From NCBI RefSeq assembly GCF_028728065.1, contig NZ_CP117811.1, positions 372,001 to 436,000 of the forward strand: a DNA stretch of 64,000 nt, given 5' to 3'. Below the pieces are notes generated by a model, which made no database searches, was not told the DNA's origin, and saw nothing but the letters and a program-made list of their open reading frames with translations. The stretch's first letter is position 1, and the number at the start of each line of letters is the position of its first letter. This DNA is from Lentisphaera profundi (GTDB lineage Bacteria; Verrucomicrobiota; Lentisphaeria; Lentisphaerales; Lentisphaeraceae). Shown one piece after another: positions 11,861-28,008 of the stretch. The translations under genes and the position numbers were made by a program.

Positions 11861-12005
11861 ATCTGTCTAGAAAAGCTGTGATTATTCGACATCAGTCAAC
11901 GTGAAATAAAATAGTGAAGGCGCGCAGGGTTTTTCATTCGGATTATGGAATCTCGCTGATGATTTGGCTCATTGTTTAAAAATTATTAACTTTTTTTCAA
12001 AAACT

Positions 12006-12038
12006 TGTCAGAAGCCTAAAAAGCTCACGAAAGACCTT
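12006..12038 (+). promoter_or_regulatory. Shared ECF-like promoter motif, site A
   Basis: TGTCAGAA (12006-12013), 13 bases, ACGAAAGACCTT (12027-12038). It ends 30 bases before the lipoprotein start at 12069. The same two blocks with identical spacing precede three other units of this island. The layout (TGTC-type -35 and CGAA-type -10 about 16 bases apart) resembles promoters of extracytoplasmic-function sigma factors; that identification is inference. Confidence 0.8.
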
Positions 12039-12068
12039 TGTGATAAAATAAAAAACAGAGGTAAACAA

Positions 12069-12500
12069 ATGAAATCATGGATCGCAATATTAGCACTAGC
12101 GAGTTTAGCGAGTTGTTCATCAACGAACACCGACAATGACTCTAAGCAAGAAGTAGCCGGCGCCATTAGTATACAGGAAAGCGATATTGATCACGACCTA
12201 AAAATGCCCGATACTGAATCAGCTAACGAGCTCGTGGCTTTTGCGCGAGGCTTGAGTGCTAAGGGTCGTTATAATGAATCCGCAAAGGTTTATACAGATA
12301 TAGCCCAGCGTTTTGAAACCGATAGCAAAGAATTCGAAAATGATTGCTTGCGTGAAGCCGTACGTCAACATTGGCTTGCGGGTGAAAAGCAAGAGGCACA
12401 GCAAGTACTAGCGGAATTAGAAGCTCAACAGAGCATTTATTCCTATAGTAGTGAAAGTCAGTCCTTTCGAAATCTTAAAAAATTAGTAAGTGCGAAATAA
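12069..12500 (+). CDS. Lipoprotein, TPR-like, first gene of the Exb/Tol-like operon
   Basis: A 143-residue lipoprotein with lipobox LASC (Cys about 16) and an alpha-helical mature part resembling a short TPR. It is a paralogue of the lipoprotein at 22741. Both share the core xELxxxxxxLxxxGRxxxxA and the signature FENDCxREAxxQxW. An in-frame upstream extension to 11964 is rejected because it runs across promoter site A and has no signal sequence. The ATG at 12069 has AGAGGT seven bases upstream. The fourteen-residue FENDC region is the best-conserved part, suggesting a shared binding site. Function unknown. Confidence 0.8.
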   Translation: MKSWIAILALASLASCSSTNTDNDSKQEVAGAISIQESDIDHDLKMPDTESANELVAFARGLSAKGRYNESAKVYTDIAQRFETDSKEFENDCLREAVRQHWLAGEKQEAQQVLAELEAQQSIYSYSSESQSFRNLKKLVSAK

Positions 12501-13500: not shown

Positions 13501-13908
13501 ATGAAAAACTTTAACAAAATAATGACTTTCGCAATTATCTTTTTCACCTTAGTGAATGTTCAAGCATCTAGTAATAAAGATAAACTAGTTAACTCAATGT
13601 TTAAAAAACAAAAAACTAATGAAGTGAAAATTGTCGAGCTATGGCAAAAAAACGAGCGTGGCGAAAGCTTAAATGATTTAGTGGCGGAATACGTTTCTCA
13701 GGAAATCCGCCTGGAATCAATGACGGATAAAAAGCGTAATTCACTACTCAGCGCAGTGAATAAATCTGGCGAGAAATTCACTTCAACAGAGGGCTTGATC
13801 AAGGCTTTGGTAATGGAGTATTATAGCCGCCAAGGGATTCAGCTCGATGATAAGTTTTATGTTGAAGGGACTTACCATATTCGTGTAAAAGAAGCGGCAG
13901 TAAAATGA
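13501..13908 (+). CDS. Small secreted protein of unknown function
   Basis: A 135-residue protein with a signal peptide (about 1-23, ending VNVQA|SSN) and a helical, charged mature part. I recognise no family. The ATG at 13501 is preferred to one 15 bases upstream because the signal peptide begins here and an AGGA lies upstream. Its stop overlaps the start of the ExbB-like gene (ATGA), so the two are translationally coupled and probably act together. Confidence 0.7.
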   Translation: MKNFNKIMTFAIIFFTLVNVQASSNKDKLVNSMFKKQKTNEVKIVELWQKNERGESLNDLVAEYVSQEIRLESMTDKKRNSLLSAVNKSGEKFTSTEGLIKALVMEYYSRQGIQLDDKFYVEGTYHIRVKEAAVK

Positions 13909-14351
13909 AAACGCGCGATATCATCTTAGCCTTTGGATTTGGTGCAGTCGCTTGTTATATGCTAGATACTCAAATGCTAGCAAGCTTTAATCCCATGATG
14001 TGGCTTACTACAATTGCTCAAAAGGTCGGGGTGACTTTTTATCCACTCATTATCCTCTCGATGTGGAGTTTGTATTCAGCCTACTCTCAAGAGACTTTTT
14101 CACCCACTACACAAGGCTATATCGCTACAACGGCTCAAAGAATTGGTCTTTTAGGCACAGTGATTGGCCTGGTGACGGCCACGATGGCAATAGGGACAAA
14201 TCTAAGTTCTGGTGCTGCCGGTGCAGTAAGTGGCGCCTTGCCAGCAGTGGGCGAAGCTCTACTCAGTACGGCGATGGGTTTTGTGATTGCTTTGCAATGC
14301 GATTTTATTATCTACCTCAAATTAGAGAAAGGCCATGAATTACATATTTAA
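13905..14351 (+). CDS. MotA/TolQ/ExbB-family proton-channel protein
   Basis: A 148-residue inner-membrane protein with about four hydrophobic segments. The last two carry the family signature: QRIGLLGTVIGLVTATMA and AVGEALLSTAMGFVIAL. The threonines in LLGT and LST are the positions that line the ion path in ExbB/TolQ. It is shorter than typical ExbB (about 240) and lacks the large cytoplasmic loop. Coupled by overlap to genes on both sides (13908 and 14335). Known family members form a pentamer that turns the proton gradient into force on periplasm-spanning partners. Confidence 0.82.
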   Translation: MKTRDIILAFGFGAVACYMLDTQMLASFNPMMWLTTIAQKVGVTFYPLIILSMWSLYSAYSQETFSPTTQGYIATTAQRIGLLGTVIGLVTATMAIGTNLSSGAAGAVSGALPAVGEALLSTAMGFVIALQCDFIIYLKLEKGHELHI

Positions 14352-14757
14352 ATCCAATGGAACAGAAGGCATGCTCGATGTAATTTTGAGTTGCACGCTC
14401 ATTTTTATGCTGATGTCGGCACTGGTTCAAGTGGATAGTCAAAGTCAACAAGAAGTGACCTTGCCCGATATGGAACTTAGTCAGAGTAAAGATCAAAATC
14501 AGCAAGGTGGCGATGATTCTATTGGTCGAGTGACGATAAGCCTCAAGAAAAGCAATCAAGACTTAGAGTGTTTTATCGATGATAAACAAGTCGATTATCA
14601 GTCTTTGGAATCCGAATTAAAAAGTATGCAAGACATCAGCCATGTGGCCCTCAGGCGCGAGCCAGGTGTTTCTTGTGGGATCGAAGATCAAGTGATCTTG
14701 ACCTGTCAAGAATTGGGGATTCATCAAGTGGCCATTGTACTAAAATCAGTCAATTAA
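14335..14757 (+). CDS. ExbD/TolR-family protein
   Basis: A 140-residue single-pass protein. The N-terminal helix (about 12-32) contains the key aspartate in MLDVILSC (Asp15), which in ExbD/TolR takes part in proton transfer. Next comes the VTLPD segment typical of the family, then a small periplasmic domain with the expected alternating strands. It overlaps the ExbB-like gene by 17 bases. With it, it should form the ion-driven motor of this operon. Confidence 0.82.
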   Translation: MNYIFKSNGTEGMLDVILSCTLIFMLMSALVQVDSQSQQEVTLPDMELSQSKDQNQQGGDDSIGRVTISLKKSNQDLECFIDDKQVDYQSLESELKSMQDISHVALRREPGVSCGIEDQVILTCQELGIHQVAIVLKSVN

Positions 14758-14767
14758 GGAGAAAGTT

Positions 14768-15136
14768 ATGAAATCACTATTTAAATTATTTGCGATCGCC
14801 GCATTAGGCGCAGTGAGCTACAATATCATGATGAATTCTAAGCTTGTGGATAAATTCAATAAGCAAGATATTTCGGAACAAGTCGAGCCCTTGATTAATA
14901 AAGTGGTCGAATTGAAAGAAGAAATCATTGAACCACAAGAGCAAATTGAAGTGGTGGAACAAGAGCAAATCACTGAAGAAAAAGCTGATCCAAATCAACG
15001 CTTACTCGAGATTGCGGGTGCACCGAAAGTTAAAAAAACACCAGCGCCTCAGCTAAGTCAAGTGAATGACTTAGAGGCTCGGAAGCAGGCAGCCCTCCAA
15101 AGACAATTAAACATTGTCAATGAGCTAACAGAGTAA
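14768..15136 (+). CDS. Membrane-anchored periplasmic protein, motor-partner candidate
   Basis: A 122-residue protein with an N-terminal membrane segment or uncleaved signal (about 4-22) and a long acidic, proline-containing stretch (EPQEQIEVVEQEQ) ending in a short helix. It has an ideal ribosome site (AAGGAG). The anchor plus extended linker is the layout of TonB/TolA-type energy transducers, but there is no recognisable TonB C-terminal domain, so this is inference from position and shape only. Confidence 0.68.
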   Translation: MKSLFKLFAIAALGAVSYNIMMNSKLVDKFNKQDISEQVEPLINKVVELKEEIIEPQEQIEVVEQEQITEEKADPNQRLLEIAGAPKVKKTPAPQLSQVNDLEARKQAALQRQLNIVNELTE

Positions 15137-15137
15137 A

Positions 15138-15800
15138 ATGAATAAGCGGCTGCTAGTTCTAGGCTTAGGCGTGCTGATTTATTTACTGGCTAATCAAAGT
15201 GAGCCTGCCATAAATAAACCAGTGCAGTCCCCACCTAAAGTTCAGCAAGAGCTGAAGGTTAAGGTGATTATGCCTCGTCCTAAATCAGCAGCAGTTAAGT
15301 CTCCAGCACCCGCTCAAGACGACGTACCCCATCAAGGGCAATTGCCTCCCATTGAAGCATCCTATCGTCAGACAATTGGTTTTCGAGCCTACGCTTTAGC
15401 GATGGAAGAACGAGGTGCCCTTTTTTTAATGAAATCAAAAAATAAGGGCGAATTTCACCACTTGAATTATCGTGGTGGGAAAGTCGAGACAATGACTCTA
15501 GCCCAATTAAAATCCCGTGGGCTTTCATCACGAACCCGGCTTTTGGGCAAGGAACCTGCCTTGCAAAAATTGCAAAAAGAAGCGGTCCAAGAAGGGGCGC
15601 GTGGCAGTGTTTTCCTTTTAGTACCAACCCATTTCGAAGCGATAATCGCTCAAGAATTCTTTGCCAAAAGTCCCCTTACTCAGGGTCTCCTCTCTATCAA
15701 AGGCCAATATGCCTTTACTCACTCGGGTTTTGTTTTAAAGATCAATCAAGTCGCCACTAAACAAGGCCTTCACAAGCTTAACTTTAGCCTTAAATTATAA
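15138..15800 (+). CDS. TonB/TolA-like anchored protein with proline-rich linker
   Basis: A 220-residue protein starting one base after the previous stop. Residues 4-20 form a membrane anchor and about 22-75 a Pro/Lys/Gln-rich linker (KPVQSPPKVQQ, MPRPKSAAVKSPAPA). A compact domain of about 130 residues follows, with no family I recognise. Such an anchor-linker-domain layout beside an ExbB/ExbD pair is what one expects of the periplasm-spanning effector. It is the last gene of unit A. Confidence 0.7.
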   Translation: MNKRLLVLGLGVLIYLLANQSEPAINKPVQSPPKVQQELKVKVIMPRPKSAAVKSPAPAQDDVPHQGQLPPIEASYRQTIGFRAYALAMEERGALFLMKSKNKGEFHHLNYRGGKVETMTLAQLKSRGLSSRTRLLGKEPALQKLQKEAVQEGARGSVFLLVPTHFEAIIAQEFFAKSPLTQGLLSIKGQYAFTHSGFVLKINQVATKQGLHKLNFSLKL

Positions 15801-16221: not shown

Positions 16222-17595
16222 TTATTTTTTGAGTTTAGCGGGAGTCGAGCTCGACTTAAAGAGTGGTTTGAGTGATTCGAGGCTCTTGTATTGATTCTGC
16301 TGAGAGAAACAAAGCCCCACAGGAGTATTCCAGATCAGATAGCCCTTTAAGTAAGCCTCAAGGTCATAGTGATCTTTGATAATGAGGTAGACTTGTTTTA
16401 ACTTATCGCTTCGTTTTAGAATGAGTGCTTGATCAGAGAACGATTCGTAATTTAGGGTGAAGCTCGAGCTCGTATTTGGTGCCAAAGTGATGGTGCCTGA
16501 ATTATCCAACTTTACTGAACCATTAACATAACGGCCATTAACTTTAGACTTATTTGTGCTTGGTCCTTTTGCATTGCCATCAATAAAAGCAAAGCCTGAA
16601 TCATTGATAGTAATAGAGGCGTGCAGTGAGCTCATATTAATATTGAGCGTTTTCATTTCTGTCTGAGGGTCAGAGGAATTGGGTGATGGATAGTTGCGTG
16701 TTAAAAGATCCGCTTCACGGCTACGCCCAAGAGTGAGGTCATGAGAGAAGATATGTAGGGTCTCACCGCTGGCTAGCTCTAGGCTCAAGCTCTTAGCTTG
16801 AGGGCTAGTGGGAAAAGTAGGGCGAGCTTGTTCTTGGGCAGGCTTCTGTTTATCATCTTGAAGATTGTTTGCAGAAGAGAAGTTTTCTGTTAAGAGAAAA
16901 GGACAGTCATCTAAGCTAATTTCATGTAGAGAAAGATCTGACCATTGGCTTTCTCGTTTACGTAATTTATCCCTATCACTTTGCAGTAAATCTTGGTTAA
17001 TTAAGTTGATGTTGCCGGTGGCATCGGTGGCATTGCCCGAGCCGTAATTGATGTCCCCGACATTGATGTTGAGTTGTGTTTTAATTTGGCCACTTTTTTC
17101 ATGGATATCAATATTGAAAAAACTGTGGAACGCTTTTTCTTCACCGTTTATTGTACAGGTGAAAAAGAGTTCAATAGCAGCATTTATAGATTCTTCCAAG
17201 GCATTAGCGGGAAGGTTAATTGAACATTTGCTTGGCAGGTAAAAAACTCTTTTTACTTCTTGGTACTGAGTTGGAGTTTGCACTAAGACTTTTAAGTTTT
17301 TTACGCTGTTATTATCTTTTTCGTCAAAGGCTAAGTGAATGGCACTGTGAACCCCTGCGACAAATTCAGAGCATGTACCCTGATCATATTTGACAATAAT
17401 CGGTAGTGTAGAGTCATTTGAAGAGTCAAAAATATTTTGATCTAGAGTCTCGATTTGTGCAATGTTGATATCCGTGGGCTCAGATGAGAGCCCATTACTA
17501 AGAGCAGGACTTGTGCTAAGTATCGCAGTACCACAGTATTCACAAAATGAGGCGTCTTCATCTTCAATCAGGCATTGGCAACTTGTGCAATCCAT
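16222..17595 (-). CDS. Zinc-ribbon protein with C-terminal FHA domain
   Basis: A 457-residue cytoplasmic protein. A zinc ribbon (CTSC and CEYC, residues 3-21) leads. A beta-rich middle (about 50-185) is of unknown type. The C-terminal half carries an FHA domain with the phosphate-binding GRS motif (LTLGRSREADLL), SSLHASI and a VNGRYVNG turn. FHA domains bind phosphothreonine, so this is a likely reader of the kinases at 23186 and 25120. Third gene of unit D, five bases after the lipoprotein stop. The FHA arginine is intact here, unlike in the sigma-FHA at 30351. Confidence 0.82.
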   Translation of the reverse strand: MDCTSCQCLIEDEDASFCEYCGTAILSTSPALSNGLSSEPTDINIAQIETLDQNIFDSSNDSTLPIIVKYDQGTCSEFVAGVHSAIHLAFDEKDNNSVKNLKVLVQTPTQYQEVKRVFYLPSKCSINLPANALEESINAAIELFFTCTINGEEKAFHSFFNIDIHEKSGQIKTQLNINVGDINYGSGNATDATGNINLINQDLLQSDRDKLRKRESQWSDLSLHEISLDDCPFLLTENFSSANNLQDDKQKPAQEQARPTFPTSPQAKSLSLELASGETLHIFSHDLTLGRSREADLLTRNYPSPNSSDPQTEMKTLNINMSSLHASITINDSGFAFIDGNAKGPSTNKSKVNGRYVNGSVKLDNSGTITLAPNTSSSFTLNYESFSDQALILKRSDKLKQVYLIIKDHYDLEAYLKGYLIWNTPVGLCFSQQNQYKSLESLKPLFKSSSTPAKLKK

Positions 17596-17600
17596 AAGTT

Positions 17601-18416
17601 TTACTGATTAGAAGTGAAAATAATTTTTGTTAATTCAGCGAGGGGATCTTCGCTATCGACTTCGATATCATTTTGACCGATACTACGTGAGCTTAAACCA
17701 TTTGGAAAATTATCCTCTTGATAGATAATACGGAAGGTATAGATATCACCTTTGGAGCTGATGAGTCGGCAATCAATAATGCCATCATAGCTTTTTGCCA
17801 TAGAAGTGAAACGACTTACGCTTTTGGATAGCTTAAGGCTGCGGTCAGTCTTATTAAACCAAGAGTCATTAAAATCGGATAAATCGATACTGAGTGCACA
17901 GGCATGAATACCATTTTTAACCTTAAGGCTTTCTTTTGCGAGCCAATCACCAATGGGACCACTAATAGCTGTAGCAGTATTGTTTTGAGCCTTACTGATG
18001 CCCGTAGTTCTTTTTCCAGTCTCTTGGAAGTGTTCTTTGGCGAGTACTTTGCCATCGGTTGTTCTAATTAAAGCTAAATCCGCAGAGATATCATAGCGAG
18101 TGTATTTTCCGAATTTGCCTTTTTCTTCACCTTTAGCACTGATTTTCATAGTGAAAAAAGAATTTTGACTAGTCGATATGGAGAAATCATCTTTTAGGAT
18201 TTTTGAGGAGATGCGATCAGTGAGGACTTGCTCGATGGAGTTACTATTGACTTGCTGTATAGCAATAGGAAGTTTCTGCTTGATAACATGTGTAGTGACT
18301 TCCCTTGAATTAACTTGACGCGGGCTTTTGTCACCGGCTTCTGAAATAGAAACGGTATTAGTCGTGCTACAAGAAAATAAGAAGAACAGGATGGATAGAG
18401 TGAGGATATGTTTCAT
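17601..18416 (-). CDS. Lipoprotein with CsgG/FlgO-like region
   Basis: A 271-residue lipoprotein with lipobox LFSC (Cys about 16). The region about 45-150 (a long helix with a strand set reading YDISADLALIRTTDGKVLA) is reminiscent of the TolB-N/CsgG/FlgO-like fold present in the caspase upstream, though weakly. The start at 18416 has GGAGA eight bases before it and puts the signal peptide first. A longer frame would overlap the caspase gene. Its place between caspase and FHA genes suggests an outer-membrane or periplasmic partner of the caspase. Confidence 0.72.
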   Translation of the reverse strand: MKHILTLSILFFLFSCSTTNTVSISEAGDKSPRQVNSREVTTHVIKQKLPIAIQQVNSNSIEQVLTDRISSKILKDDFSISTSQNSFFTMKISAKGEEKGKFGKYTRYDISADLALIRTTDGKVLAKEHFQETGKRTTGISKAQNNTATAISGPIGDWLAKESLKVKNGIHACALSIDLSDFNDSWFNKTDRSLKLSKSVSRFTSMAKSYDGIIDCRLISSKGDIYTFRIIYQEDNFPNGLSSRSIGQNDIEVDSEDPLAELTKIIFTSNQ

Positions 18417-18435
18417 TTTTAATGTCTCCAAATGA

Positions 18436-20736
18436 TTAACGCACACGCGTCATTTTTTTAAGTAAAATAAAGCCGATGATGAGCGCAAATAAAATACCTA
18501 CGCCAACAGCAATGATCGTGAATAAATTTTCAACGAGGAAACGCTCGCCTTTTTCGACAATTTTTTCTTCAGTTGTTTTCTTGAGTGCGACGGGCTTAAT
18601 AGATTCCTTGCTAATGAAATCAGTCCAAATGATTTCACCTGTGCTTAAATCTTTGATTTCACCTTGCAGATTCAGGGCTGATTTATCACCAGAGTTATTG
18701 ACTTGGGCACGGCCTGTGAAGAACGCGAGTTTAATGTCAGGCGTCTTGTTGCCAACGAGGTAGGATGAAATGTAGTTAAGGTCGACTTGTCCTCCTTTGA
18801 ATTCACCGAGATCGCGTAACACTCTGCGCATGAGGTGACGACGGTCGTTGGATACCGTATCGAAACGATGAAAGGACATCAAACCCATAGTTCTCGAACT
18901 AAGCTTCGAAATCAGAATGTCCTCTAGGTTTTTATTCCCAGATTCAAAAGGTGCCACAATGACTTTGTATTTACTGTTGATTTTACTTGCCAGGCTATTG
19001 GCCATCTCATCGGCAGCTTCAAAAGCGAGTTTTTGACTCGTTGTATCTAGAGCTGAGTTGGAGGTATTTGAATTAGGCTCGATATCATAGAATTCACCTT
19101 CAAGGGTTTTCTTGAAGTACATACGTCCATCTAAGCCACTGAGCATGATGGTGAGTTTAACTAATGTTTTATTAGCCGTTTTTTCTACGCCGCGAACTTC
19201 GCCAGAGAGGATGGCGTCAACTGGATAGGCCTTAGCAATTGCTTTGCGCGTCTCAGCGGTAAGTGAATTGGCCAAAGTTTTATCATGGAGGACTTTTTTC
19301 CAATCGTGGGGATTAGTTGTGTAGAATACATACTTTGATTGGTGATTCGATAATTCGTCTGAGATGATATCGTAAAGTTTATGCTTATCGTTAAAGAAAG
19401 GCAGAATAGCAATATTTTTGACATCAAAATCTTTGTTGAGCAATTTACCTGCGCTGTAGGCTGCATCCTCGGCAGCTTTTTCGATTTTGGAGTCAAATTC
19501 GAAAGCTTCAACTTGTGAATCTTCAGAAGGGTAGGTGACATCGATAAAAGATGAGGTGACAATTTTCAGTGATTTGATATCGTAGAGGTAGAATTGTAAA
19601 GCAACTCGAACACGACCATGTTGTCCAATTACTGAGCGAACTTTACCTTTGACAATAGCTTGGATTCCTTGGAATTTAGCATCTTCAATTTTAACTAAAG
19701 TTTCGGGATCAAATAGGTCGTCGTAACCATCGGCAGCAATATTGTATTCTTGAGATATAGCATCCCATTCTTTACGATCACGGGTAAAGAATTCGAAGTC
19801 AGTACTTGTGCCGGGGAGTTTTGCAGAAATGATGTCAGATAAATTAAAGCGATCATTTTCTAAAGGAATGAAAGCGACTCTTTTGTATTGACTGGAGAAA
19901 TCCGCTATTTTGGCAATGATTTGTTGTGCGGCAATTCCGGTTGCCTTGTCAATTAGAATAGTGTTGGCCGTCATCGGGCGATTACTCGGCTGGGAGCTTT
20001 TGACCTGGGGACTAAAACTGAAGTAGCCCATGAGCGAGGAGTGCTCCCAAGGAGTTTGCTGTTGTTGAGTCGAGGAAACCACATCGCCACGGACTTTTTT
20101 AAACATTTCTTCAATGCTCAAGGGCTCGTGGATATGTTTAAGCAGTGCCGCAGTATAAGGAGAGTTTCTGCCATTGACGGAATTGATGGCGATATTGCCT
20201 GGGTTGGTAGCAAAAGCGATGTAGGAACCTGTGGGGGCTTTCATCTCCTTGAAAGTTCCCTGAAGTGCTGTCTTAGTGCCAGCGAAAGAGCGAGTGAGTT
20301 TATTGCGGCAAGCATCGACGATAATAATATTGACACGTGTTTTTTTCTGTTCCATGACCGAGAGAATATTATTAACGGGAATGAGATCACTTGCACTGAG
20401 GGCATTGATAGGAGCCAGGCAGTTATTATCTTTATATTGAATACCATGTCCTGAGTAGTAGAAGAGCACTTCGTCGCCTTCGTTCAGTTTATTGGCGAAC
20501 TCACGAATCGCACTTTTGACATCACTACTTGTGGCATCGGTACGAAGAACAATTTCGAAATTCGAGGCCTTTAGTACTTTTGCGAGATCTTTTGCGTCGT
20601 TATTGGGGATTTCGCCTAAGTTGCCTTGTTCTGCGGGGTAATTACCGCAGCCAATGACTAATGCCACGCGTTTGGCATGAGTTGTCAGGCTGATAAAGAA
20701 TAAAATTAAAAGTGGAAGAATTTTTTTTGCTGACAT
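18436..20736 (-). CDS. Exported caspase-family peptidase (C14) with three CsgG/TolB-like domains and a C-terminal anchor
   Basis: A 766-residue protein. A signal peptide (1-21) precedes a caspase-fold domain (about 22-245) with the dyad in YYSGHG (His) and VDACRN (Cys). Three similar domains follow, starting at RVAFIPLEND (about 288), KNIAILPFFND (about 445) and YKVIVAPFESG (about 610). Each has the hydrophobic strand, proline and polar turn of the CsgG/TolB-N/FlgO group, and two carry AIVKGKV or AILSGEV strands. A last helix (about 735-758) with a KKMTRVR tail anchors it. The peptidase should therefore lie in the periplasm. First gene of unit D; ribosome site GAGAGGG. Full dyad, so active peptidase is likely; substrate unknown. 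Confidence 0.9.
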   Translation of the reverse strand: MSAKKILPLLILFFISLTTHAKRVALVIGCGNYPAEQGNLGEIPNNDAKDLAKVLKASNFEIVLRTDATSSDVKSAIREFANKLNEGDEVLFYYSGHGIQYKDNNCLAPINALSASDLIPVNNILSVMEQKKTRVNIIIVDACRNKLTRSFAGTKTALQGTFKEMKAPTGSYIAFATNPGNIAINSVNGRNSPYTAALLKHIHEPLSIEEMFKKVRGDVVSSTQQQQTPWEHSSLMGYFSFSPQVKSSQPSNRPMTANTILIDKATGIAAQQIIAKIADFSSQYKRVAFIPLENDRFNLSDIISAKLPGTSTDFEFFTRDRKEWDAISQEYNIAADGYDDLFDPETLVKIEDAKFQGIQAIVKGKVRSVIGQHGRVRVALQFYLYDIKSLKIVTSSFIDVTYPSEDSQVEAFEFDSKIEKAAEDAAYSAGKLLNKDFDVKNIAILPFFNDKHKLYDIISDELSNHQSKYVFYTTNPHDWKKVLHDKTLANSLTAETRKAIAKAYPVDAILSGEVRGVEKTANKTLVKLTIMLSGLDGRMYFKKTLEGEFYDIEPNSNTSNSALDTTSQKLAFEAADEMANSLASKINSKYKVIVAPFESGNKNLEDILISKLSSRTMGLMSFHRFDTVSNDRRHLMRRVLRDLGEFKGGQVDLNYISSYLVGNKTPDIKLAFFTGRAQVNNSGDKSALNLQGEIKDLSTGEIIWTDFISKESIKPVALKKTTEEKIVEKGERFLVENLFTIIAVGVGILFALIIGFILLKKMTRVR

Positions 20737-20866
20737 GGTTACCCTCTCATATTGTTGATGTATAAAAATAGTTTTTCTAGTTGTATATACAAAGCATTCA
20801 AAAGTTCTGGCCGATGATTTAGCTTTGATTTAATCATCTTTAAACGCTCATTTAAGTTTTGTGTTG

Positions 20867-20899
20867 AAGGTATTTCGAGCCTTATGAACTTTTCTGACA
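20867..20899 (-). promoter_or_regulatory. Shared ECF-like promoter motif, site D
   Basis: On the minus strand, TGTCAGAA, 13 bases, TCGAAATACCTT, reading toward the caspase gene about 130 bases away. It stands nearly back to back with site C (16 bases between), so the divergent units are driven from one short control region. Confidence 0.78.
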
Positions 20900-20914
20900 A
20901 ATAATCATAAAAAA

Positions 20915-20947
20915 TGTCAGAAAAAGTTTTTTATGACGAATGAGCTT
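20915..20947 (+). promoter_or_regulatory. Shared ECF-like promoter motif, site C
   Basis: TGTCAGAA (20915-20922), 13 bases, ACGAATGAGCTT (20936-20947), reading toward the SPFH-like gene at 21021 and leaving a leader of roughly 70 bases. Confidence 0.8.
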
Positions 20948-21020
20948 TAGTCAAAAACAGTTTAAGCAATAAGCTAAAGTGTTATGTTTATGAGAAAGTT
21001 AATTTACGAGGAGCTTGGTT

Positions 21021-22457
21021 ATGGGATTATTTAGTGATAAATGCGACTGCGGCGCGAAGGTGAAAAAAGCTGCAAGATTTTGTAATACGTGTGGCAAGGG
21101 AGCTCCCGGAGGCTGGGTAAAGTGTTACTCTTGTGGGAAGTGGGTAGGCAATGAATCAAAGCATTGCGCTCACTGCAATTACGATTTGAAGCCTGAAGAG
21201 CGTGGTCAGATTTATGATAATAAATTCAGCAAAGATCCCACCCTTTTACTCTCTAAATTAGATTTAAAATTTTGTTCAGCGCGAACTGAGTCTGGTTTGA
21301 CCCTGGATACCGGGCAGATGGCCTTTGTTGTGGATGGAGATGAATCCTCACTTGTGGAGTCTGGCAATCTAGATGTCAAATCTTTGGCAAAAATAGGGGC
21401 TCATGCTTGGTTGCTTAACCTAGATCTGCTCGTGGTGCCACTTTGGGCGGAGAAAGTTCAAAGTGCCGACCTCATGGAATTTGATGTCTATTCGGAATTG
21501 ATTGTGACTTGGGATCAGCAAGCACTTAGTAAAAATGGTATTGAACTACTCGCAAGCAAAGAAAACTTGAGTTTAGAGCAAGTGAAAGAACTGGTCTCCA
21601 AAGCCGCCAAGGATGTATCTCTCAAACTGGTGAGAGCATATAAACTGAGTGAATTATTATTTAATCCTCATGAACGCATCAACTTTGATACTGAATTACA
21701 AAAAGTAATTAGGCTTGAACTCTCACGCTTAGGTTTGAGAGTGATACATTTTGCTGTGCCTCAGTTGGAAGGCAAGGAAATGCGCCAGGCAATGGCGAGA
21801 GAAAAAGATAAAGTTGAAGCGGCCAAAGAACTCGAATATAATCTGCGTATGCGTGAGATCCTCCAAGAAGATAACTTAGATCAATTAAAATCTGAAGATG
21901 AAGTCAAGGAATACGCGGCACAATTAGCCAATCAATTCGATATTAAACAAGATAAACGCGATCACGATTTAAACTTACTTCAGCAAGTTCATCGCCACGA
22001 AATCGATGGCAAAGAACTCGGTTTTAAATTGGCGGAAGAAACTAAGATTAAAGAGCACAACTTAGCAATGGCAACCAAGGAAATGGCTTTTGATGATAAA
22101 GCCAAAGATCATCAGATTAAACAAGATAAGAAGCAATTGAATTTCGATGTGGAAGAATCGGAGAAATGGCTTGATGTGAAGCGAAAGAAAAACGCTGTCA
22201 GCCGTGAAGATGAATTTGCCCGCCTAGAAAAATATAGCAAGTTCGATCTTCAAAGTCTAATTGCCGCACTTCCTAAAGCTCAGGCCGAGAACTTAGTGAA
22301 ATTCAATCAAGCTAATTTGCGTGAAGGTCAACCCGATGTGGTGATCTTAGAAATGATCAATCGTTTTCCAGAGATGGAGTCAATCTTAAAAAATAAAATG
22401 ACCCCGGATGCAGATTTACTTGCCAAGCTCAGCGATTTTTTGAAAAGTAAATCCTAG
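21021..22457 (+). CDS. Double zinc-ribbon SPFH/band-7-like coiled-coil protein
   Basis: A 478-residue cytoplasmic protein. Two zinc ribbons lead (CDC with CNTC; CYSC with CAHC, within 1-55). A domain at about 65-270 follows the SPFH/prohibitin plan, with paired strands and the LSRLGLRVIHFAVPQLEG turn typical before the coiled coil. A long charged coiled coil (about 260-420) and a helical tail complete it. SPFH proteins oligomerise on membranes; without a membrane segment this one may be recruited through partners. Start chosen at 21021 for its GAGGAG site. Promoter site C precedes it. Confidence 0.78.
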   Translation: MGLFSDKCDCGAKVKKAARFCNTCGKGAPGGWVKCYSCGKWVGNESKHCAHCNYDLKPEERGQIYDNKFSKDPTLLLSKLDLKFCSARTESGLTLDTGQMAFVVDGDESSLVESGNLDVKSLAKIGAHAWLLNLDLLVVPLWAEKVQSADLMEFDVYSELIVTWDQQALSKNGIELLASKENLSLEQVKELVSKAAKDVSLKLVRAYKLSELLFNPHERINFDTELQKVIRLELSRLGLRVIHFAVPQLEGKEMRQAMAREKDKVEAAKELEYNLRMREILQEDNLDQLKSEDEVKEYAAQLANQFDIKQDKRDHDLNLLQQVHRHEIDGKELGFKLAEETKIKEHNLAMATKEMAFDDKAKDHQIKQDKKQLNFDVEESEKWLDVKRKKNAVSREDEFARLEKYSKFDLQSLIAALPKAQAENLVKFNQANLREGQPDVVILEMINRFPEMESILKNKMTPDADLLAKLSDFLKSKS

Positions 22458-22720: not shown

Positions 22721-22740
22721 AAAATAACGAGGTGATTTTG

Positions 22741-23169
22741 ATGAAATTAATAATGTGTTTATGCGCCAGTATTTTGATGGGCTGTACTTCAAGCTTGCAA
22801 GTCGAGGATGTCTTAGCCCAAAATGAGTACAAGAAGTTTAATGCAGTCGCCTCGCAAGATAAGCAGGCTGATGAGCTGAATGAATTGCTCGGGCTATCGA
22901 AGCAATTGGCGAAGCAAGGCCGCAATCGTGATGCAGCTCGAATCCTTCATGAACTGAGTAAAGATTATGAATCATTGGGCAATGCTTTTGAAAATGATTG
23001 TCGTAGGGAAGCCATTGTTCAGTACTGGAAAGTGGGTGATGAGGATAAAGTTCTGGAGATATGGGGAGAAATGGAAGAAGAAGTCTTTGGAGAATTCCAT
23101 CAAAATGATTCAGTAGAGAAGATTGTGGCTGAGATTGTTTGTAGACGAGAAAATGCTAGACTAAATTAA
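22741..23169 (+). CDS. Lipoprotein paralogous to the one at 12069
   Basis: A 142-residue lipoprotein with lipobox LMGC (Cys about 15). The mature helical part aligns with the lipoprotein at 12069 through the signature FENDCxREAxxQxWxxG and the preceding GRxxxAAR helix. The ATG at 22741 is chosen over a GTG nine bases earlier because GAGG is properly spaced. First gene of unit B, 16 bases before the kinase at 23186. Having one such paralogue lead unit A and the other lead unit B suggests a matched role, perhaps outer-membrane sensors for the two arms. Confidence 0.8.
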   Translation: MKLIMCLCASILMGCTSSLQVEDVLAQNEYKKFNAVASQDKQADELNELLGLSKQLAKQGRNRDAARILHELSKDYESLGNAFENDCRREAIVQYWKVGDEDKVLEIWGEMEEEVFGEFHQNDSVEKIVAEIVCRRENARLN

Positions 23170-23185
23170 TGTATAAGTCAATGAA

Positions 23186-25057
23186 ATGAGTTCTTATGTC
23201 ATGAATGAAATAGAGTATTCTAGAACCGACCCGCTATTTAAGACGAGTGAGTTGAGCGAAAAGCCCTCACTACCTTTTTTAGTGAATAAGAGAACTGATA
23301 CCTTCCCAAAGGAGAAATCTAGTTTTGCTAAATATAAGGGCTTAGAAAGCATTGGAGAGGGCGCTTCTGCAAAAGTTTACAAAGCCTATGATGAACAATT
23401 GGATCGTTATGTTGCTTTAAAAATACTGCGTCTGCAAATGCAGTTAGATAAAGACTCGATGCAGCGTTTTGAGCATGAGAGGAAACTGATGGCCAAGCTT
23501 TCTATCGCTGGGATTGTCCCCGTCTATGAACAGGGCAATTGTGATGGCATGGAATTTTTTGCGATGGAGTACGTGGAAGGCCTCACTTTTGATAAGTGGC
23601 TCAAGGTAAATCAGCCATCTTTAGAAAATATCTTAAAAAAGTTGGCTGAATTAGCTCAGATTATTGCAAGACTCCACGAGAAAAATATTATTCATCGGGA
23701 TATAAAACCCCAAAATATCATGGTGACCAATGAAGGGGGCTTGCGTTTAATGGATTTGGGGATTGCCAAGGCGATAGATCAAGATGTGTTTTTTACCGCC
23801 CATGGCAATTTGCCTTGTACGCCGGCCTATTTGTCGCCTGAAGCGATTATCAATAAAAAGACCGATATACTAGAATTAGATTTATACGCGCTCGGCTTAG
23901 TGGCCTTTGAAGCGGTCTTTAAAAAGTTTGCTTATGATATCCAAGGTTTGCCCATAGAAGAGGCACTTACTTGTATAACAAAGAGTCAGGTACAGACTCC
24001 TAATGATCCCGACGTACCAAGTTGGCTGAAAGTCGCTATTGAGAATTTACTTGATCATGATCCACGAAAAAGAATGTCTGCACAAGAATTTCACTTAGAA
24101 TTGATGAAGTATCAAGATTTGGCCAAGGGGTCTATTATTTTGAGCACCAGTCAAGGAAGTAATACCTTTAAGAAAAGCAGAATTTTGCTGGCACCAACTT
24201 TAATTACTCTAGTTGTGGCGGCTTACTTTTTCTTTGGAAAAGATTTCTTTAGCAGCCCATCAATTTCAGAAGACCTTCAAAATACTGAGATCGTAATTGA
24301 GTCCGAAGAAAAGAGTGAGCTAGAGTTAAACGATTATGCCAATTACCGTGAATTGGCCGCGGGAAGTCAGGAGGCCTTTGATCAGCAAAAGCAATTGCTT
24401 GAGGAGGGTTACCCCCTAGAATTAAGTTTAGCTAAATCGGGAATAATTTTTCGTTTAATTCCCGCAGGAGAAATTCAGCTAGGGGCTGATCTTTTACAAA
24501 ACAAAAGCCCTTTTTATATGGGGAAATATGAAGTGACTCAAGAGCAATGGGATAAAGTGATGCGCAATAATCCCTCTAAGTTTAGTGGTGCAGCTTTATC
24601 TCCAGTAGAAAATGTGACTTGGTTTGAGTGCCAATATTTTATTCGTGAATTAGAGCGTTTTGAAGGTCTGGCCGAAGGATCCATAAAGTTACCCGATGAA
24701 GAGCAATGGGAATTTGCTTGTCGTGGGGGAACCAAAACACCTTTTTATAATAGTGAGCAAGCAAAAGATTTAGCGGAAGTCGCAAATTTTTATGAAAATT
24801 CTGAGCAGAAACCCTGTGCAGTGGGACAGTTTAAAGCGAATGTTTATGGGCTTTACGATATGCATGGCAATGTCTATGAATGGTGTGAGGATACTGAATC
24901 AAAAGGACAGCGATTGATAAAGGGTGGTTCGTGGATGAAAAATAGTTTCTTTTGTCAGTCTTCAGGAAAGTCATTTTTGGCTGAAGATAGTAAGAATTCT
25001 CAGACGGGCTTGAGATTGATTTTAGATTATAAGAAAAATAAAAAATTAAGGGATTAG
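23186..25057 (+). CDS. Ser/Thr kinase with periplasmic SUMF1/FGE-like domain
   Basis: A 623-residue single-pass receptor kinase. The kinase domain (about 48-315) has GEGASAKVYKA, ATP lysine 79, HRDIKPQN (170-177) and DLG in place of DFG (190-192). A membrane helix lies at about 332-350. The outside part has the pre-domain LAAGSQEA...GYPLELSLAKSG and a SUMF1-like domain (about 425-615) with YEVTQEQWDKVM, LPDEEQWEFACRGG, HGNVYEWCED and GGSW. Of the two FGE active-site cysteines only the second position is kept (GGSWMKNSFFC), so sulfatase maturation is unlikely and ligand sensing likelier. The start lacks a clear ribosome site. Its last codons (KKLRD) lie in a 17-base sequence that also occurs at the break in the remnant at 22465. 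Confidence 0.9.
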   Translation: MSSYVMNEIEYSRTDPLFKTSELSEKPSLPFLVNKRTDTFPKEKSSFAKYKGLESIGEGASAKVYKAYDEQLDRYVALKILRLQMQLDKDSMQRFEHERKLMAKLSIAGIVPVYEQGNCDGMEFFAMEYVEGLTFDKWLKVNQPSLENILKKLAELAQIIARLHEKNIIHRDIKPQNIMVTNEGGLRLMDLGIAKAIDQDVFFTAHGNLPCTPAYLSPEAIINKKTDILELDLYALGLVAFEAVFKKFAYDIQGLPIEEALTCITKSQVQTPNDPDVPSWLKVAIENLLDHDPRKRMSAQEFHLELMKYQDLAKGSIILSTSQGSNTFKKSRILLAPTLITLVVAAYFFFGKDFFSSPSISEDLQNTEIVIESEEKSELELNDYANYRELAAGSQEAFDQQKQLLEEGYPLELSLAKSGIIFRLIPAGEIQLGADLLQNKSPFYMGKYEVTQEQWDKVMRNNPSKFSGAALSPVENVTWFECQYFIRELERFEGLAEGSIKLPDEEQWEFACRGGTKTPFYNSEQAKDLAEVANFYENSEQKPCAVGQFKANVYGLYDMHGNVYEWCEDTESKGQRLIKGGSWMKNSFFCQSSGKSFLAEDSKNSQTGLRLILDYKKNKKLRD

Positions 25058-25119
25058 GCGTAGCGCTCTAATCATTTAAGTTATAGTATTTAGACAGTTA
25101 GGAATAATGGGGAGTGATG

Positions 25120-28008
25120 ATGTCCGGGGATGATATAGATGTGAGTGTGGGTGATATGCCCACTATGAAGGGCAATGATCCGCCGGTGTCGATTGATGTC
25201 AGCTTAGATGATATGGCAACCATGCCAGGAGATAATCAAGAGAAGCTTGCCATTGTTGATCGCTATGAATTATTGGAAATGCTGGGACGCGGGGCTTTTG
25301 GCGCGGTCTTTTTGGCGCGAGATACAGTTTCGGATCAGCTCGTGGCATTAAAGACACTTCCTCCCGAGCTCAGTCACTCCGCCGAAGATCTAGAAGCCGT
25401 GCGCGAAAATTTTAAATTAGTCTCTGACCTGAGTCACCCTAATATTGCCCAACTTAAATTTTTACATCAAGTAGCCGAAGTGAACAGTTTACAGGGAGGC
25501 GTTCATATAGTTAGAGGTGAATACTTAGTGGTGATGGAATATATCGAGGGATCGACTCTAAGTTCATGGAAAAAGCAGTTTTCAGATAGAAAAGTTCCTA
25601 TTGAGAAAGCCCTCGATATTTGTACACAAGTAGCCGCAGCTCTAGATTATGCACATGGGAAACAAATCATTCACCGGGATATCAAGCCCGGTAATATAAT
25701 GATTGAGGCAGATGGCCAGGTTCAAGTGCTCGACTTTGGTTTGGCGGCAGAAGTACGTAGCTCCATGAGTCGCCTGAGTACAGAGACGGGGTCTACCTCG
25801 GGTACACGGCCGTATATGCCTCCTGAGCAGTTATTAGGGCAAGGACAAAATCACAGTGCAGATCAGTATGCACTAGCGGTGATGTTCTATGAACTTATTT
25901 CTGGGACGGTGCCCTTTTTGCCAGTATTTGAGAGTGGGGATATGCAGCTGATTTTAGCTGTAGTGCCTAGCCAAGCAGCAGTGCCGCTCGACGGACTCAG
26001 TAAAAAAGAAAATAGAGTCTTATTGAAAGCCCTGTCCAAAAATAAAAGTGATCGCTACCCATCCTGCATGGAATTCATGGAGGCCTTTGCGGGCGGAAAA
26101 ATCAAAAAAGTGCGCTCGCCGCAAAAGAAAAAAGGCAAGATCCCGATGATGGTGGCTTTTGTCGTTTTACTTACGCTTTTCTTTGCTTGGTGGGGTGTTG
26201 ATGTAAAACAAAATAAACCTATAGAAATTACGAATGAAAATTCAGGGATAAATGAAGATTTAATTCGCTCTAATGATCAGCAAGAGCGGGCGGTAGAAGT
26301 CAAAGATGAAAAGCAGGACAAGCTTAGGGAGCTTTTGCGCTTAGCGCAAAGTGCCTACGATGCTAATCAGTGGGTAGAGGCCAATGGCTTTGCTCAAAAA
26401 GTTTTAGCCTTGGATCCCCAAAATAATCAAGCTAAGCAAATTCAGCAAAAAGTAGCCGATCAAATGGGGATGAATCAAGTGGTGCCAGTGAAATCGCGAG
26501 CGGAAGTTCTCTACGAGCAAGTCATCAATAGCCGTGAGATAGATAGCTCCGATGGTTTTGCTAGTCGACTAATGGAACTCCGCTCCAAATCGAAGATGGC
26601 TAAGACTTATTTAGAAGTGAAAAATTATGCTAAGGCCGTGAGTGCTTACCAAGATTTAGAGTTTTCAGTTAAGGACTATATCAAAAGCGATCTTGAACGA
26701 GATGCACTAAAATTAAAAATCGCGAAGATGAGTCAACTAAATACAGGCTTATCGAATTTTGGCGTAGTGGAATTTGATGAAGCCAAGGCAGCCGTAAAAA
26801 TAGCTGAACGCTCTTTGCCAAAAGGTGATTTTGCGATAAGTACAAAGCTTTACCAAGCAGCAGAACAAAAAATCATCAGTGCGAACCAAGTGGCAAAAAA
26901 AGCCTATGAAAAAGATGAAGCTCAGCGAAAGTTAGTCGCAGAAGCGACGCGTGTGCAGTCTCAAGTACCGCAGTTATTATCCCAGCACCAGACATGGCTA
27001 GGTTATGATGAATCTAAAGAAGCCTACGCTAAAGCAAGGCAGGCCTATAGCTCAAAAAACTATGTCGAGGCAATAAAACTTTATGGCTTGTATGCAAATA
27101 AATTTAAGGCTATGAAATCCGATCTAAGCCCACAAGTACAAAAGTATTTATCGAGGGGCATGAAAGTCGTTAAAAATGCGACTTATAGCTCATTAAATGG
27201 TTTGGCTGCGGGTAGTGCCGAAATGCAATTGCGCCAAAAAGAATGGGTTGCCAAGGGTTGGCCCCTAGAATTAGAATTGGCAAAGACAGGTCTGCGTTTT
27301 CGCTTGGTTCCACCAGGAGACTTCATGATGGGGAGTCCACGTAAGGAAGAAGGGCGAGATGCAGATGAAGCTCAAAAGCAAGTGACGATTTCGAAGCCTT
27401 ATTATCTGATGAAGACTGAAATCACTCAGGCTCAATGGACGAAAATCATGGGTAAAAATCCCAGTTATTTTAAAAATGCGGGCTCCAATGCTCCTGTAGA
27501 AAGTATTAGCTGGGAAGATTGCCAAAACTTTATAAGAAGACTGTCCTCTTATGAAGGTGCGATCAACATTTCCTTGCCAAGTAAAGCTCAGTGGGAATAT
27601 GCCTGTCGTGCGGCGACTAAAAGTTCAATTTATAATGGCAACATGAAAATACATGGTGAGCGTAATGCACCGCTATTAGATGAAATAGCCTGGTACGGGG
27701 GTAATAGTGGAGTTACTTATGCAGGAGCTTATGATAGTAGCTATTGGAAAGAGAAGCAATACGATCACAGTCGGGCGGGTACTCACCCCGTTGCGCTAAA
27801 AATGGCAAACGCTTTAGGCATGTACGATATGCAGGGCAATGTATGGGAATGGTGTGCAGATTGGTACAATAGTGATCGTCAAAACAGAGTTTATCGTGGT
27901 GGTAGCTGGAACGATGATGCCCAGGACTGTCGTTCGGCGAATGGCTACGGCTATTCACCCGGACAAAAGACCTACGACCTTGGGGCTCGCCTGGCTTTGA
28001 GTCATTAA
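25120..28008 (+). CDS. Ser/Thr kinase with coiled-coil/TPR linker and SUMF1/FGE-like domain
   Basis: A 963-residue receptor kinase. Residues 5-40 hold two copies of an acidic motif, DVSVGDMPTMKGN and DVSLDDMATMPGD. The kinase domain (about 48-330) has GRGAFGAVFLA, Lys78, HRDIKPGN (185-192), DFG (205-207) and PPE. One membrane helix (about 345-362) is followed by a helical region with TPR-like repeats (about 395-680). The SUMF1-like domain (about 720-960) has LPSKAQWEYACRAA, QGNVWEWCADW and GGSWNDDAQDC. As in the previous kinase only the second FGE cysteine position is present. The start at 25120 has GGGGAG five bases upstream. Third and last gene of unit B. Confidence 0.92.
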   Translation: MSGDDIDVSVGDMPTMKGNDPPVSIDVSLDDMATMPGDNQEKLAIVDRYELLEMLGRGAFGAVFLARDTVSDQLVALKTLPPELSHSAEDLEAVRENFKLVSDLSHPNIAQLKFLHQVAEVNSLQGGVHIVRGEYLVVMEYIEGSTLSSWKKQFSDRKVPIEKALDICTQVAAALDYAHGKQIIHRDIKPGNIMIEADGQVQVLDFGLAAEVRSSMSRLSTETGSTSGTRPYMPPEQLLGQGQNHSADQYALAVMFYELISGTVPFLPVFESGDMQLILAVVPSQAAVPLDGLSKKENRVLLKALSKNKSDRYPSCMEFMEAFAGGKIKKVRSPQKKKGKIPMMVAFVVLLTLFFAWWGVDVKQNKPIEITNENSGINEDLIRSNDQQERAVEVKDEKQDKLRELLRLAQSAYDANQWVEANGFAQKVLALDPQNNQAKQIQQKVADQMGMNQVVPVKSRAEVLYEQVINSREIDSSDGFASRLMELRSKSKMAKTYLEVKNYAKAVSAYQDLEFSVKDYIKSDLERDALKLKIAKMSQLNTGLSNFGVVEFDEAKAAVKIAERSLPKGDFAISTKLYQAAEQKIISANQVAKKAYEKDEAQRKLVAEATRVQSQVPQLLSQHQTWLGYDESKEAYAKARQAYSSKNYVEAIKLYGLYANKFKAMKSDLSPQVQKYLSRGMKVVKNATYSSLNGLAAGSAEMQLRQKEWVAKGWPLELELAKTGLRFRLVPPGDFMMGSPRKEEGRDADEAQKQVTISKPYYLMKTEITQAQWTKIMGKNPSYFKNAGSNAPVESISWEDCQNFIRRLSSYEGAINISLPSKAQWEYACRAATKSSIYNGNMKIHGERNAPLLDEIAWYGGNSGVTYAGAYDSSYWKEKQYDHSRAGTHPVALKMANALGMYDMQGNVWEWCADWYNSDRQNRVYRGGSWNDDAQDCRSANGYGYSPGQKTYDLGARLALSH

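Follow-up and report, generated by a model that had tools for sequence, protein, structure and literature searches.

Gene organization of the locus

On the minus strand of the window, the 64,000-nucleotide stretch of DNA analysed here, a gene at 18436..20736 encodes a protein of 766 residues, in which a predicted signal peptide is followed by a caspase domain, three LpoB/CsgG-like domains (the last of them likely a degenerate copy), a transmembrane (TM) helix and a basic tail. The 766 codons form a single open frame with no internal stop, and the ATG start codon at 20736 lies 5-6 nt downstream of a ribosome-binding-like AGAGGG. By sequence inspection and hydropathy, the signal peptide spans residues 1-21 (20674..20736, minus strand) and consists of KK, then LPLLILFFISL, then TTHA/K, with cleavage predicted after THA. 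At the other end of the protein, a hydrophobic helix of residues ~738-760 (18457..18525, minus strand) is followed by KKMTRVR, a C-terminal design that relatives also have; in the hydropathy check of the signal peptide and the C-terminal helix, the peak 19-residue mean is 3.08. These features support, as predictions, both the export and the C-terminal anchor that a sequence-only reading of this DNA had proposed. Specifically, the last helix probably tethers the protein to the inner membrane, which would place the caspase just outside it. The full-length single-sequence structure model (pLDDT 42.5) is of use for the caspase fold only.

The caspase gene heads a row of three tightly spaced minus-strand genes. 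The next gene, 19 nt further on, encodes a lipoprotein (17601..18416; lipobox FLFSC) homologous to lipoproteins of relatives (L010 and L035-L042), and 5 nt past it lies the gene of a Zn-ribbon protein (16222..17595) that is related by phmmer to proteins of L037, L039, L041 and L046. The relatives of this Zn-ribbon protein carry an FHA domain (9e-8), and the Pfam scan of the window copy gives no significant FHA match. On the opposite side, an AT-rich intergenic region (20737..21020; 30% GC) is common to two divergent units, the second of which begins with the plus-strand gene of a double-zinc-ribbon SPFH/Band 7 protein (21021..22457; 25% to its conserved L010 homologue). Zinc ribbons are found in 12/12 members of this SPFH family and Band_7 in 8/12, with a best match of 2.5e-14.

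Two genes for Ser/Thr kinases adjoin this set (23186-28008). The second kinase ends in a formylglycine-generating-enzyme-like domain (5.8e-37), and by eye the first ends in similar sequence. Because the kinase family is huge, with 53-143 matches per genome in five relatives, a kinase search in the relatives is uninformative. Additionally, ExbB/ExbD-like proton-channel genes (13905-15800; Pfam 1.5e-8 and 7.1e-10) lie ~2.6 kb from the caspase gene and are followed by genes for small membrane-associated proteins. By eye, two small lipoproteins resemble each other (11964-12500 and 22732-23169; ...FENDCLREAV and FENDCRREAI...); they precede the ExbB/ExbD-like operon and the kinase genes, respectively.

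The caspase domain retains its catalytic dyad

The caspase domain (Peptidase_C14; residues 22-245, 20002..20673, minus strand) matches Pfam over residues 22-236 at 1.4e-36, scoring 126.8 bits against a cut-off of 21.4 bits, and is a full-length domain of the p20 fold. It also matches the NCBIfam family caspase_w_EACC1 at 1.6e-16, which is under the cut-off of that family. Among solved structures, human MALT1 is the best relative (5.7e-15), and alignment to it identifies His97 (in YSGHG; 20446..20448) and Cys143 (in DACRN; 20308..20310) as the catalytic pair, which confirms the intact His-Cys peptidase of the sequence-only reading. With this dyad in place, the protease is apparently still active. 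In the same alignment, D47 and D141 (the latter at 20314..20316) coincide with MALT1 acids that line the S1 pocket for Arg, a role established for MALT1 and metacaspases. Asp141 and Asp47 are therefore the predicted S1-pocket acids for Arg or Lys at P1, and we infer a paracaspase-like, Arg/Lys-specific caspase.

The nearest caspases are alphaproteobacterial (~40% identity), with matches in 263 plasmid records. The genome itself holds one other, weaker caspase, and a scan of the genome contigs yields a single caspase-only relative (L008). N-terminal signal peptides are present in 4 of the 8 related plasmid caspases sampled and in L008. In line with this, a survey of prokaryotic caspase homologues recorded transmembrane helices in 104 of 671, many of them at the N-terminus, where they may be signal peptides (PMC3501461). 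Among bacterial caspases, export is by itself no rarity, and the earlier view of export as an unusual trait was overstated.

LpoB/CsgG-like domains in the C-terminal half

The three regions that each open with a strand-plus-P motif, as first picked out from the sequence, are real. Against a held-out family profile built without the window protein, domain 1 (core residues 262-406; 19519..19953, minus strand) scores 46.1 bits and domain 2 (core residues 417-553; 19078..19488, minus strand) 36.4 bits, whereas the best of 200 shuffled controls reaches 4.2 bits. Both domains are members of the LpoB/CsgG/TolB-N superfamily. Domain 3 (residues 566-726, scored part 573-711; 18559..19041, minus strand) scores 15.3 bits with a terminal-domain profile and 17.2 bits with a merged profile, values that none of 2000 shuffles equals; by hhalign, its probability ranges from 2 to 52% depending on the profile, and no significant similarity to domain 1 or domain 2 emerges. 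Domain 3 is thus likely a degenerate LpoB/CsgG-like copy. The proposal of three CsgG/TolB-like folds accordingly stands for the first two domains and is likely for the third.

A structure model of domain 1 is of low confidence (pLDDT 61; pTM 0.56). Its best fold match is LpoB (4q6l, 4e-5), followed by FlgT, GNA1162, PelC, CsgG and TolB, and the TM-scores of all these matches are ~0.3-0.5; PelC dodecamer entries are among the matches, and no clearly different fold appears among the leading ones. For domain 1, this fold comparison agrees with the kinship first proposed. At the sequence level, the domain profile has no meaningful match among PDB sequences, and the Pfam scan of the window protein gives neither LpoB (PF13036) nor CsgG. 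Its relatives do match: a PF13036 match is present in 10 of 13 family members (best 5.7e-14), and the caspase-free relatives L010-L012 of the same phylum match LpoB at 1.4e-8 to 5.7e-14 and CsgG at up to 2e-4. Of the named families, LpoB comes closest, ahead of CsgG and TolB. A match of the window protein to LptE (5e-4) falls below the cut-off, and we take it as a weak match to domains 2-3 and not as a sign that the protein belongs to the LptE family.

The LpoB-like protein is a subunit of a conserved four-gene module

The C-terminal half of the protein is a subunit of a four-gene module conserved in the phylum, which the sequence-only reading had missed. The module comprises a Zn-ribbon SPFH protein, a Zn-ribbon/FHA protein, a lipoprotein and a tandem LpoB-like, TM-anchored protein; homologues of all four lie at 16222-22457, and the neighborhoods fetched from relatives show the same set. 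A profile of the SPFH protein (21021-22457) matches strongly in 15 of the 388 phylum genomes searched, and there are a few weak matches in addition. The LpoB-like subunit is found at E<=1e-15 in 14 of the 388, each of which has the SPFH gene (14/14); conversely, 14 of the 15 strong SPFH genomes hold the subunit, G375 being the exception. The LpoB-like domain profile was drawn from the SPFH loci and then run against all 388 genomes, where it found no strong copy elsewhere; three subunit members came to light without recourse to SPFH. A more complete search of the class adds six genomes, which brings those with the subunit to 20. The module is absent from the congeners G001 and G002 and was not found in three other family members. 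Scans of viral contigs revealed no relatives, and tblastn of the C-terminal half against plasmids gave no match.

Caspase-free full relatives have a signal peptide, tandem domains, a TM helix and usually an R-x-R end, and wherever the start is present the signal peptide directly abuts the first LpoB-like domain. The number of copies varies, as in L044:2405-4852 (minus strand), which has four full LpoB-like domains and a terminal one. In G224, the reading frame of the module lipoprotein homologue (L043:11022-12278) holds an LpoB-like domain (E 3e-19) and is possibly a further fusion or extra copy.

Four relatives offer a separate observation. In L036, L039, L040 and L041, the module also holds a Snf7/ESCRT-III-like protein (L036:2499-3122, L039:810-1466, L040:11439-12017 and L041:11263-11850), whose best match, 1e-6 in L040, is above the Pfam cut-off. 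An AAA ATPase gene accompanies it (L036:1380-2492, L039:1485-2666, L040:13675-14808 and L041:12546-13649); these ATPases are single-domain proteins with AAA_lid_3 and weak Vps4_C matches; the assignment to Vps4 is tentative, and no MIT domain was detected. The genome of the window has no close match to this ATPase, and a search of it with the Snf7-like profile A8 alone gave no match. ESCRT loci that include SPFH and zinc-ribbon proteins have been described in archaea, and many ESCRT components are said to have no identifiable bacterial homologues (PMC10936438); the accepted bacterial relatives of ESCRT-III are PspA/Vipp1 (PMC8281802). A bacterial ESCRT-III/Vps4-like pair beside an SPFH gene, if such it is, would be notable, as a lead about the relatives rather than the window.

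The caspase is fused to the module subunit

The caspase sits between the signal peptide and domain 1, unlike in the relatives, where these two abut, and a true fusion follows from this arrangement. Among the 20 genomes with the subunit, this is the sole caspase fusion: a caspase search of the 15 fetched neighborhoods gave no match, and in the six additional genomes the open frames (368-411 aa) are too short for a caspase. Its occurrence in one genome only would also be expected if an assembly error had merged two adjacent genes. Such an artefact is highly improbable, however, given one long contig, a frame with no internal stop, a junction with no start codon or signal peptide (the linker, residues 237-261, holds no second signal peptide) and an ordinary composition. 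Recent horizontal transfer of the region, considered separately, is unsupported by GC, which equals that of the window. Taken together, the sequence itself gives the domain make-up, the intact dyad and S1 acids, the membership in the module and a genuine fusion of caspase and module subunit. With a single genome known to carry the fusion, conservation lends no support to a function of the combination.

A literature search for caspases with CsgG returned nothing relevant, and a word search of a published survey of 112 bacterial architecture types shows no occurrence of "CsgG" (PMC3501461).

A proposed mechanism and its alternatives

Topology, localisation, activity, specificity, substrates and physiological role of the fusion protein are inferred here, and the reading we tentatively prefer is that of an exported Arg/Lys caspase fused to an anchored LpoB/CsgG-fold subunit of an SPFH/FHA/lipoprotein module, which may survey the envelope and control the caspase through its assembly. 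Specifically, Sec would export the protein, whose final helix would serve as an inner-membrane anchor; the caspase and the three LpoB-like domains would then lie in the periplasm, and the basic tail in the cytoplasm. The module would be an envelope-surveillance assembly, in which the zinc-ribbon SPFH protein would provide a scaffold at the cytoplasmic face, the FHA protein may read phosphorylation (two Ser/Thr kinases being encoded alongside), and the lipoprotein and the LpoB-like subunit would lie at the periplasmic face. Upon assembly of the module, the LpoB/CsgG-like domains would draw the caspase together as oligomers, and proximity would switch it on to cleave envelope proteins after Arg or Lys. 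Proximity commonly activates caspases, and some members of the superfamily, CsgG and PelC among them, assemble as rings; oligomer-driven activation is accordingly modelled on PelC, CsgG and GNA1162, and would hold by analogy. A bolder and distinctly improbable extension is a periplasmic caspase-activating platform, in which LpoB/CsgG-like domains, arranged on the inner membrane as a ring or cluster, would act with the SPFH/FHA scaffold to unite caspases upon envelope damage. If true, this platform would be a structural counterpart of the apoptosome outside the cytoplasm, resting on a module that is linked in other members of the phylum to an ESCRT-III-like protein.

Somewhat less probable than the preferred reading, and rather doubtful, is a reading in which the caspase is simply an exported protease of proteobacterial type, acting in the envelope or in scavenging; its LpoB-like anchor would only retain it in the envelope, with the module in no controlling role. 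The nearest caspases (alphaproteobacterial, ~40%) would fit it, half of those sampled having signal peptides and their C-terminal parts being diverse, as would the single occurrence of the fusion; yet the anchor is a specific module subunit, which still shares an operon with two of its partners, the lipoprotein and the Zn-ribbon protein, and adjoins the third, the SPFH protein. Alternatively, the caspase may process the module itself: cleavage of the neighboring lipoprotein, or of the LpoB-like domains in its own chain, would serve as a switch for maturation or release. The tight operon with the lipoprotein (19 nt) is consistent with such a role. Moreover, a gene adjoining the tandem LpoB-like gene in three relatives (L039:3661-4593, L046:2882-3988 and L048:214-1326) encodes a trypsin-like protease in the caspase-free L039 (Pfam 1.5e-16) and, in the corresponding position of L046 and L048, homologues of it; proteolysis may therefore recur in the module. 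Nevertheless, the trypsin-like neighbor is classified at one locus only, that of L039, and no cleavage site can be named from the sequence; self-processing appears unlikely.

Caspases act as effectors in several defence systems, and the protein could likewise be an effector of defence or programmed death, whose module senses infection or an envelope signal and whose caspase then damages the envelope and kills the cell. A PADLOC caspase model matches at 1.8e-14, and two kinases adjoin. However, the PADLOC match spans the catalytic half only, the kinase matches are generic in the five relatives counted above, no toxin is fused to the module relatives, and the neighbors scanned include no recognised defence system; an effector role is a shade less probable still than self-processing.

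Significance and comparison with known systems

In this locus, a caspase that appears to be functional is linked to a defined, conserved and little-known envelope module, by which both become testable: the module could suggest a substrate and a trigger for a bacterial caspase, and the caspase would serve as a readable output of the module. The locus also brings to light a phylum-wide SPFH/FHA/LpoB-like module, which Snf7-like and AAA ATPase genes adjoin in some relatives.

Among known systems, LpoB, the peptidoglycan-synthase activator (PF13036, TIGR02722), resembles the family both in fold (4q6l as top match) and in sequence profile (PF13036 in 10/13). LpoB is a lipoprotein with one such domain, whereas most members of the present family carry it in 2-5 tandem copies, along with a cleaved-type signal peptide and a TM helix at the C-terminus. 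As for LpoB proper, the PBP1b activator, the window protein has no lipobox and no PF13036 match, and its relatives are far under the TIGR02722 cut-off (31-63 bits against 110 bits); a separate, ordinary LpoB is encoded in the same genome at C1:498666. CsgG, FlgT, PelC, GNA1162 and TolB-N share the fold family according to the fold search, and the relatives' CsgG matches reach 2e-4. In contrast to this superfamily, the architecture here is tandem and membrane-anchored, with no pore or secretion partner seen nearby; with respect to a CsgG secretion pore, the window protein has neither a CsgG match nor a lipobox.

In Bacillus subtilis, the SPFH protein YdjI and the membrane proteins YdjG and YdjH position PspA (PMC8581546), an analogy in favour of the preferred reading. 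This system likewise combines an SPFH gene with membrane partners in an envelope context, but it has no LpoB-like subunit, lipoprotein or caspase, and no homologues of PspA or YdjG/YdjH were recognised beside the window module. Paracaspases and orthocaspases, such as MALT1 and the alphaproteobacterial enzymes, share with the window caspase the catalytic dyad, the S1 acids and the full-length Pfam domain, and the window caspase differs from them in its fusion to a module subunit.
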